Assembly: GCA_025359985.1 (NCBI GenBank)
Contig: JANYDB010000059.1
Location: 1-64,000, forward strand
Length of the DNA stretch: 64,000 nucleotides
Origin: Burkholderiales bacterium
GTDB lineage: Bacteria > Pseudomonadota > Gammaproteobacteria > Burkholderiales > Usitatibacteraceae
Direction: 5' to 3'
A program made the position numbers and the translations under genes. Positions 17,897 to 48,612 of this stretch are shown in pieces; positions within the stretch are counted from its first letter, which is position 1, and every line of letters begins with the position of its first letter. The notes beneath the pieces were generated by a model, which did not search any database, was not told the origin of the DNA, and saw nothing but the letters and a program-made list of their open reading frames with translations.

Positions 17897-18032
17897 AACG
17901 AAAATCTAAAGCGTAGAATGCCTATTGACGGTCAGTTTGAAGCAAAAATGGCTTAAACAGCAGGCTGGGCGCGGAGTTTGTAATCGTAACGCAGCAGACG
18001 ATGACCAACATGAAATACCGGCGCTCGCCCAT

Positions 18033-44749: not shown

Positions 44750-44857
44750 TGAAATCGGTCTGCGTCGATCTAATTTTGAAACTCCCTAACCAGCGCGGCT
44801 TTTAGGGCAAAAATGCCTCAATTGCCTCACCTACGCTAGTGTTTAAATAATTTTTTT

Positions 44858-46162: not shown

Positions 46163-47239
46163 ATGATCCCGCCAGATATTATTCGGCCCGAAATCGCAGC
46201 GTTGTCTGCCTATCCTGTGCAATCAGCCTCAGGTTTTATCAAACTGGATGCGATGGAAAACCCGTATGCTTTTCCCGCGATGCTCCAAGCTCGGCTACTG
46301 GCGAGGCTTTCCGAGGCATCGCTGAATCGTTATCCGAGCGCCGATGCGCCTGAATTGAAAGCGGCGATTCGCCAGGCCATGAGCATTCCGGCTGAGCTTG
46401 ATATTTTGCTAGGCAACGGTTCGGATGAAATTATTCAACTCATCGCGTTGGCCTGCGCACGACCGGGTGCAAGCCTGTTGTCTGTCGAACCTGCGTTCGT
46501 GATGTTCAAAATGATCGCTAAATTTTGCGGCCTGAAATATGTGGGCGTACCGCTGAAAACTGATTTTTCAATCCACATTGAAGCCATGATCGCAGCGATT
46601 GAGCGCGACCAGCCCGCCGTTACTTTCATCGCCAATCCCAACAATCCCACTGGCAATTGTTTTGATCGTACATCGCTTCATCGTCTCATCACCACAGCTG
46701 AAAAAAATCACGGCCTAGTGGTTATTGATGAAGCTTATTTTGCATTCTCCCGCGAATCATTTTTGCGCGACATTGCGCAATATCCGAATGCAGTTTTAAT
46801 GCGCACCGTGTCGAAACTCGGCCTCGCGGGCGTGCGGCTTGGCATGCTGATCGGCCGACGGGAATGGCTGCAGGAGTTTGATAAATTGCGCTTGCCCTAC
46901 AACATTAATTGCCTGACGCAAGCGGCCGCCATTTTTGCGCTGGAGCACTACGATGCCTTGCTATTGCAGGCAGAATCCATCAAACAGGAGCGTAGCCGCC
47001 TGACGACAATGCTCAAGCAAATTGCCGGCCTTCAACCATTCCCCAGCGACGCTAATTTCATTCTGGTGCGCGTAGCCGCTGCAGACAAAATTTTTAACGC
47101 CCTGCTCTCGCGTAAAATCTTAGTGAAGCACACTAGCAAGTCACACCCGCTGATGGCGAACACACTGCGTTTAACCGTTGGCACCCCTGCCGAAAACGAT
47201 GCGATGATAAGCGCATTAAAATATTCAATAAGCCTATGA
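46163..47239 (+). CDS. hisC: Histidinol-phosphate aminotransferase
   Basis: A class I/II PLP aminotransferase converting imidazole acetol phosphate to histidinol phosphate. It shows the N-terminal [24 protein letters not shown], the NPNNPTGN substrate loop, [10 protein letters not shown] and the PLP lysine in [14 protein letters not shown]. At about 358 aa it has normal length. The track starts at GTG 46160; ATG 46163 directly follows and is equally good. It overlaps hisB by four bases. Confidence 0.96.
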
Positions 47240-47826
47240 ACCGAACCGCCGATATCACCCGCAACACCCAGGAAACCCGGATTCACGTGGCCTTGAATTT
47301 AGACGGCAAGGGCGTGGCCAAACTCGATTCAGGCATTCCGTTTCTGGATCATATGATTGATCAAATTGCGCGTCACGGCATGATCGATATTGAATTAAAA
47401 GCCACCGGTGATTTACATATTGATGCGCATCACACGGTTGAAGATATTGGCATCACACTCGGTCAAGCCATCACTCAGGCGCTCGGCGACAAGATGGGCA
47501 TTGTGCGTTACGGGCACGCCTATGTGCCGCTGGATGAAGCCCTGTCGCGCGTAGTGATTGATCTGTCGGGTCGGCCTGGCTTGTCGTATCACGTCAACTT
47601 CACGCGCGCACGGGTCGGCGATTTGGATGTCGATTTATTCATCGAATTTTTTCAGGGCTTCGCGAATCACGCATTGGCAACGGTGCACATCGATAATATT
47701 CGCGGCGTGAATGCACATCATCAAGCCGAGACCATTTTTAAAGCGTTCGGACGCGCATTGCGGATGGCGTGCGAGCGGGATGCGCGTGCGACAGGTATCC
47801 TGCCCTCAACCAAAGGTTCGCTTTAA
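47236..47826 (+). CDS. hisB: Imidazoleglycerol-phosphate dehydratase
   Basis: It dehydrates imidazole glycerol phosphate. The 196-aa monofunctional form has the paired metal motifs [13 protein letters not shown] with [11 protein letters not shown], and [11 protein letters not shown] with [13 protein letters not shown], each supplying the HxxxH/E ligands of the dimanganese site. There is no N-terminal phosphatase domain, unlike enteric HisB, so histidinol phosphate phosphatase must be elsewhere. After the stop comes an unusual 132-bp gap before hisH. Confidence 0.97.
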
Positions 47827-47847
47827 TAAAATGCAAACTCCAGCAAA

Positions 47848-47887
47848 GACGGGAATCTTGAAGCGTTTTTGCTTCAAGATTCCCGTC
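47848..47887. repeat. 17-bp perfect inverted repeat (hairpin) between hisB and hisH
   Basis: GACGGGAATCTTGAAGC (47848-47864) and its exact reverse complement (47871-47887) flank a six-base loop GTTTTT. The stem is long and stable. No T-run follows on either strand, so it is not a normal terminator. It could be a processing or stability element, or a small mobile repeat copy. Confidence 0.85.
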
Positions 47888-47914
47888 AATAGAAGGGTTA
47901 GCATTGTCTATTCG

Positions 47915-47953
47915 CTGTACTGATTAGCTGTATTGATTAGCCGTGTTGATTAC
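47915..47953. repeat. Three tandem 13-bp repeats just before hisH
   Basis: CTGTACTGATTAG, CTGTATTGATTAG and CCGTGTTGATTAC follow each other directly and end five bases before the hisH ATG. Copy 1 and 2 differ at one base; copy 3 differs from copy 2 at three. The array occupies the site where the hisH Shine-Dalgarno would be, and none is obvious there. Confidence 0.8.
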
Positions 47954-47958
47954 CTTTT

Positions 47959-48612
47959 ATGCAAAAAATCGTTGTTGTTGATTACGGGATGGGCAATCTG
48001 CGCTCAGTGGCGAAAGCCTTTGAATTCGTGGTGCGTGAACATGCGTTACCGTTTGAGGTCGCGATTTCTGACTCGCCCGACGAGGTGCGTAAAGCTGACC
48101 GCGTGATTTTTCCGGGTCAAGGCGCGATGCCGGATTGCATGCGCTATCTGCGCGAAAGCGGCCTGGAAGATGCCGTCCGCGAGAGCGCCGCCGCCAAACC
48201 GTTTTTGGGTATTTGTGTGGGCATGCAGATGTTGTTCGATGTTTCTGAAGAGGGCAACACGCCGGGCTTGAGCATTTTTGCAGGCACGGTAAAACGCTTT
48301 CAGCCGACAGATGCCTCTCTGAAAGTGCCCCACATGGGTTGGAATGAAGTCATGCAAACCCGTGCACATCCGCTATGGAAAAACATTCCCGATGCAGAGC
48401 GTTTTTATTTCGTGCATAGTTATTACTGTGAACCTAGTGAAAACCCGAACATCATTACCGACCCCAAAGTCACTACTGCCGTGGCAGACTATGGTCAACG
48501 CTTCACCGCTGCGGTGGCGCGCGACAATATTTTTGCGACACAATTTCACCCTGAGAAAAGTCATCACGCCGGCTTGACGTTATATAAAAATTTCCTTGAA
48601 TGGATACCTTAA
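47959..48612 (+). CDS. hisH: Imidazole glycerol phosphate synthase subunit HisH (glutamine amidotransferase)
   Basis: It supplies ammonia to HisF from glutamine. A class I amidotransferase of 217 aa, with the oxyanion loop [10 protein letters not shown], nucleophile Cys86 in FLGICVGMQ, and the catalytic His197 and Glu199 in TQFHPEKS. The start ATG follows the tandem 13-mer array with no clear ribosome-binding site, so its translation may be tuned differently from the tightly coupled genes around it. Confidence 0.96.

Follow-up and report, generated by a model that had tools for sequence, protein, structure and literature searches.

A perfect hairpin between hisB and hisH belongs to an apparently undescribed, genus-wide family of 66-nt palindromic repeats

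The closest described systems to the element reported here are short palindromic repeats that lie near bacterial genes. REPs are 20-40 bp long, with stems of 5-13 bp and an unpaired GTAG or CGTC head; REPs and BIMEs are short, palindromic and intergenic with more than 100 copies per genome, as is our element, and mRNA-stabilising roles have been proposed for REPs (PMC2817692, PMC3733652). Our element differs from them in its 66-nt core, its 30-pair stem and the lack of a tag. Palindromes of the MITE type, including NEMIS/Correia, ERIC and YPAL, share with it the palindromic form, conserved inverted ends and a position next to genes, a likeness of description and not of directly compared sequence; they are transcribed, and can either stabilise or destabilise mRNA (PMC3733652, PMC2649163). 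Surveys of stem-loop families (PMC2267715) cover the same general class of repeated, mostly intergenic stem-loops. Intrinsic terminators are likewise stable hairpins shortly past a stop codon, whereas the hairpin described here has no T-run and lies inside an operon.

The window (the whole 64-kb stretch of DNA that was analysed) contains this hairpin in the gap between the hisB stop at 47826 and the hisH start at 47959. The sequence GACGGGAATCTTGAAGC-GTTTTT-GCTTCAAGATTCCCGTC is the exact content of positions 47848-47887 and its arms match at 17/17 positions, so that the 17-bp perfect hairpin with a six-base GTTTTT loop, described in an earlier note on this DNA, is present exactly there. A perfect hairpin with an arm of 17 and a loop of 3-10 is expected by chance 3e-5 times per 64 kb, and the window has no second hairpin whose arms reach at least 12 with a loop of 3-10. 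The predicted RNA fold has an energy of -31.1 kcal/mol (z -9.5), with one G-U pair added to the 17-bp stem. The feature is wider than the earlier note had it, with a repeat core at 47835-47900 that includes an outer stem. In the fold of these 66 nt (-35.4 kcal/mol, z -8.1) positions 47842-47847 and 47888-47893 are unpaired, and a short outer stem closes beyond them. No Rfam match at gathering score was found in the window. The features are as follows, with scores from R1, the first of two covariance models of the repeat:

44779-44844, minus strand: another copy of the element, in a more decayed state, between hisG and hisD (R1 38.2 bits, E 6.2e-7)
47236-47826, plus strand: hisB (imidazoleglycerol-phosphate dehydratase), ORF upstream of the element, named by content and operon order
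47835-47900, plus strand: 66-nt palindromic repeat element, AAACTCCAGC...AGGGTTA (R1 86.8 bits, E 5.8e-19)
47848-47864, plus strand: left arm of the inner stem (17-bp perfect stem)
47865-47870, plus strand: loop GTTTTT, six bases, T-rich (family consensus loop ATTTTT)
47871-47887, plus strand: right arm of the inner stem (17-bp perfect stem)
47959-48612, plus strand: hisH, ORF downstream of the element

The outer-stem register of R1 is one column off, and this is corrected in the second model, R2, under which the hisB-hisH element scores 73.7 bits and the hisG-hisD copy 58.1 bits (E 1.4e-11). The hisB-hisH element has the top R1 score in the family among the matches listed, and it starts 8 nt past the hisB stop, a typical placement for the family. 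We do not count the weak R1 match at 17914-17983 (E 0.97) as a further copy. Homologues of hisB are present in 60 of 61 related genomes, and congeners yielded a hisH homologue unless their operon is broken. Three tandem 13-bp units (GCTGTACTGATTA / GCTGTATTGATTA / GCCGTGTTGATTA) occupy 47914-47952, after the hairpin and ahead of the hisH start codon.

A genome search with the exact arm, as the earlier note had proposed, returned nothing beyond near matches to a single arm, and alone would have suggested a unique hairpin; it was a DNA search of the genus that revealed the family. With 301 bases around the hairpin as query, the segment 47829-47899 recurs several times in this genome and in several congeners, and the unit read from these copies is 66 nt long, starts with AAAC, ends with GTTT, and is palindromic throughout with a T-rich loop. 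Of the possibilities raised in the earlier note, the third, a copy of a dispersed palindromic repeat, is thus the right one, with many copies here and in every congener. R1 gives at least 128 strand-matches in this genome and at least 146 in Betaproteobacteria bacterium UKL13-2 (CP012157.1, a complete genome of the same genus, G003 below), and R2 at least 148 and at least 150 respectively; the element is palindromic and one copy is often matched on both strands, so strand-matches are not distinct copies. Distinct copies under R2 were counted in 332 kb of this genome (contigs C45, C60 and C115, of which C60 and C115 were chosen because they held matches), where there are 22, and in three blocks of UKL13-2 totalling 400 kb, where there are 35; this extrapolates to about 200-230 and about 300 copies per genome, respectively. 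With R1, all 13 genomes of this freshwater genus give matches and the 48 genomes from elsewhere, 15 of which belong to the same family, give none; one scan of viral contigs found no copy. The genus-wide family of 66-nt palindromes is apparently undescribed so far, and we know of no stem-loop family survey in which this genus appears. UKL13-2 is a cyanobacterium-associated freshwater strain, and its genome paper reports many repeats and makes no mention of palindromes or hairpins (PMC5248499).

Fifty-three copies align without gaps over 72 columns with a mean column identity of 69%. Columns A7 and T69 do not vary at all, and A5, A6, C10, G21, T28, A47, C54, G65, T68 and T70 are nearly invariant, the conserved columns being symmetric positions of the palindrome. 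The consensus has near-invariant AAA/TTT ends, a 30-pair stem and a T-rich 6-nt loop (ATTTTT). Many individual stems are decayed, with a median longest run of 6 bp and a median of 19 of the 30 pairs formed. Over the 30-pair stem 73.3% of cells are paired, compared with 69.1% after shuffling, and there are 135 two-sided pair changes compared with 85 +/- 10, in the proper register only; this covariation beyond shuffles is genuine, with the caveat that the copies had been picked by a structural model. DNA-level template switching of imperfect palindromes, or subfamily ancestry, could be the source of part of it. The nearest-neighbour identity among copies is about 50/72 (about 70%) and there are hardly any near-identical pairs, and thus no sign of recent bursts. 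The recent origin that the earlier note suggested from the perfect arms is not supported, as the closest of the other sampled copies matches the hisB-hisH copy at only 53/72 positions and there is no fresh duplicate. Long perfect arms are also seen in other species, in two near-perfect full-length elements of different sequence: one in the hisA-hisF gap of G002 (L186:8216-8287, with 21 contiguous pairs) and one in the hisG-hisD gap of G012 (L187:9614-9685). Because length, ends and pairing are kept while compensatory changes alter the stem sequence, even at one and the same site, we also considered that an enzyme or RNA system of the genus recognises the hairpin and keeps several hundred copies in shape, much as structure is recognised in integron attC sites or REPINs; we regard this as rather improbable. 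Identity with attC itself, considered for the AAC/GTT ends, was set aside on inspection of the sequence (the R'' core RYYYAAC misfits the consensus, and the copies are dispersed and not arrayed).

Placement was scored against a gene map from a home-made gene caller (87% coding). Of 61 copies 56 are intergenic, whereas random 66-mers overlap genes in 88% of cases. Thirty-five per cent of copies are within 10 nt of a stop codon (10% expected) and 5% are near start codons (12% expected). Fourteen are in convergent, 36 in tandem and 5 in divergent gaps, where 14%, 63% and 23% are expected, so that convergent gaps are enriched and divergent gaps depleted; the orientation of the element relative to genes is not fixed. 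The enrichment after stops and in convergent gaps is what would be expected if the palindromes were the gene-end terminators of the genus, with the his copy trimming hisH-hisE expression, and the flank after copies close to a stop is somewhat T-rich (5.8 T in 14 nt). However, only 11 of 63 copies end in five consecutive T, and two copies in the his operon of the window, and three in that of G004, separate genes that should be transcribed together. In the window copy neither the inner nor the outer stem is followed by a T-run, which bears out what the earlier note had said of it; the 47848-47887 hairpin was not called as a terminator, and an intrinsic terminator was rejected for this copy. We therefore consider a role of the family in termination or attenuation unlikely.

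A DNA-level site to which a dimeric chromosome or supercoiling protein binds, with contacts at 5-7/68-70, 10/65, 21/54 and 28/47 of the 72-mer, would account for the symmetric conservation peaks, the near-symmetric palindrome and the absence of a fixed orientation. However, the covarying pairs imply that many inner bases were replaced together, which is unusual for a plain binding site, and insertion tolerance or RNA better accounts for the strong gene exclusion and the bias towards stop codons; such a site is in our view a doubtful explanation.

We compared the his operon across the genus, including the hisB-hisH gap, and the occupancy differs between congeners. In the hisG-hisD gap there is a copy in eight genomes (that of the window, G003, G004, G006, G007, G008, G009 and G012), and in G001, G005 and G010 this gap is about 15 nt without an element. 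The hisB side is occupied in three (that of the window, G004, and G011, where the copy is decayed) and lacks a copy in G001, G002, G005, G006 and G010; the hisA-hisF gap is occupied in G002, G004, G005 and G012. Strong selection on the hisB-hisH copy, the other reading the earlier note gave for its perfect arms, is likewise without support: sister species lack it or have a very different and often decayed copy there. Most copies in the hisG-hisD gap resemble one another no more than unrelated copies do (e.g. 37/66, with a mean of 40), the clearest exception being the G003-G009 pair (49), and therefore would represent either independent arrivals at a favoured site or divergence to saturation with the architecture kept. 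The recurrence of copies in the his gaps of most congeners might suggest a his-specific RNA element that is kept because it regulates histidine synthesis. This seems very unlikely, with hundreds of copies elsewhere, an occupied gap that varies by species, three congeners with 15-nt hisG-hisD gaps and no element, and no Rfam match.

Several other differences in these operons are apparent. In G008, G009, G003 and G007 (L192-L195) hisB is followed by an apparent murJ/mviN-type gene and not by hisH, from which the his operon appears to be split, and in G008 there is no hisC between hisD and hisB. The hisA-hisF gap of G006 (L184:10255-10380) has a different long palindrome of about 70 nt (GGATTCAGGA...TCTGAATCC), possibly of another repeat family.

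We rejected identification of the 66-nt element as a REP. It is too long for the 20-40 bp and short stem of these repeats, and has no unpaired GTAG or CGTC head: the AAAC...GTTT ends of the consensus are paired, and the CGTC of the window copy is inside the stem (PMC3733652). RAYT genes (PF01797) are present in 12 of the 13 genomes of the genus, and they are not paired with the repeat: only 3 of 20 RAYT loci have a copy no more than 1.5 kb away. As in MITEs, there are terminal inverted repeats, with near-invariant AAA/TTT ends and the whole element forming an inverted repeat, and presence/absence polymorphism, seen at hisG-hisD, hisB-hisH and hisA-hisF and not implying a direction of gain or loss. 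A scan for target-site duplications of 2-9 nt at offsets -4 to +4 gave only 3-4 of 63 copies at the best settings of a large scan, and no cognate transposase or parental transposon was identified, RAYTs being the genes examined. We call the element REP/MITE-like and file it as neither. With no cognate transposase, no target-site duplication and hardly any young copies, the case for mobility is indirect.

The explanation we favour, with a probability of roughly 0.6, is that the hisB-hisH hairpin is a copy of a genus-specific palindromic repeat, an old non-autonomous mobile element found at gene ends and acting as a passive RNA hairpin. Such an element would have settled preferentially just downstream of stop codons and been tolerated there. 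With cotranscribed his genes on both sides, this copy should appear in the mRNA, as a very stable hairpin directly downstream of hisB that would block 3'-to-5' exonucleases and may be an RNase III cut site. The hisB and hisH mRNA segments would then decay separately, with no termination and no dedicated his-regulatory role. A role in mRNA stability or processing is plausible on this analysis; a passive effect on decay of the two segments is the most likely form of it, and a dedicated his role is unlikely. It is possible, although we think it less probable, that the hairpin is an inert genomic passenger, a palindromic mobile remnant that is harmless near gene ends and forms an RNA hairpin without consequence. 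Orthologous gaps that vary freely between species, the dissimilar hisG-hisD copies and the commonly decayed stems are all consistent with this, but free decay should give indels too, and the length is kept almost without them at about 70% identity, together with near-invariant ends and covarying pairs.

The element is of a known kind and what is new is the family itself, with several hundred copies genus-wide and no mobiliser in sight. Since its copies differ strongly in sequence and yet keep one length and conserve their pairing, they are well suited as a natural set for asking how such repeats persist: through RNA-level selection, through mobility, or through template-switch repair. The family is also a warning that a perfect hairpin inside an operon should not be read as a dedicated regulator.

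We note two further features of UKL13-2. At 139-159 kb there are four identical 66-nt copies with near-identical flanks, 5-8 kb apart (L130:5646, 10821 and 19049; L129:18999), which point to a larger duplicated segment. There is also a second palindromic repeat of about 134 bp with the ends GGGAACTTCTAAAAACC (L123-L142; e.g. L137:18295-18440 and L123:16873-17006), whose end motif did not turn up in those parts of the window's genome that were sampled. By eye, it has apparent 4-bp target duplications at several sites, and very often it is about 7-9 nt past the GTTT end of 66-nt repeats; it resembles a MITE with the 66-nt palindromes as its target.
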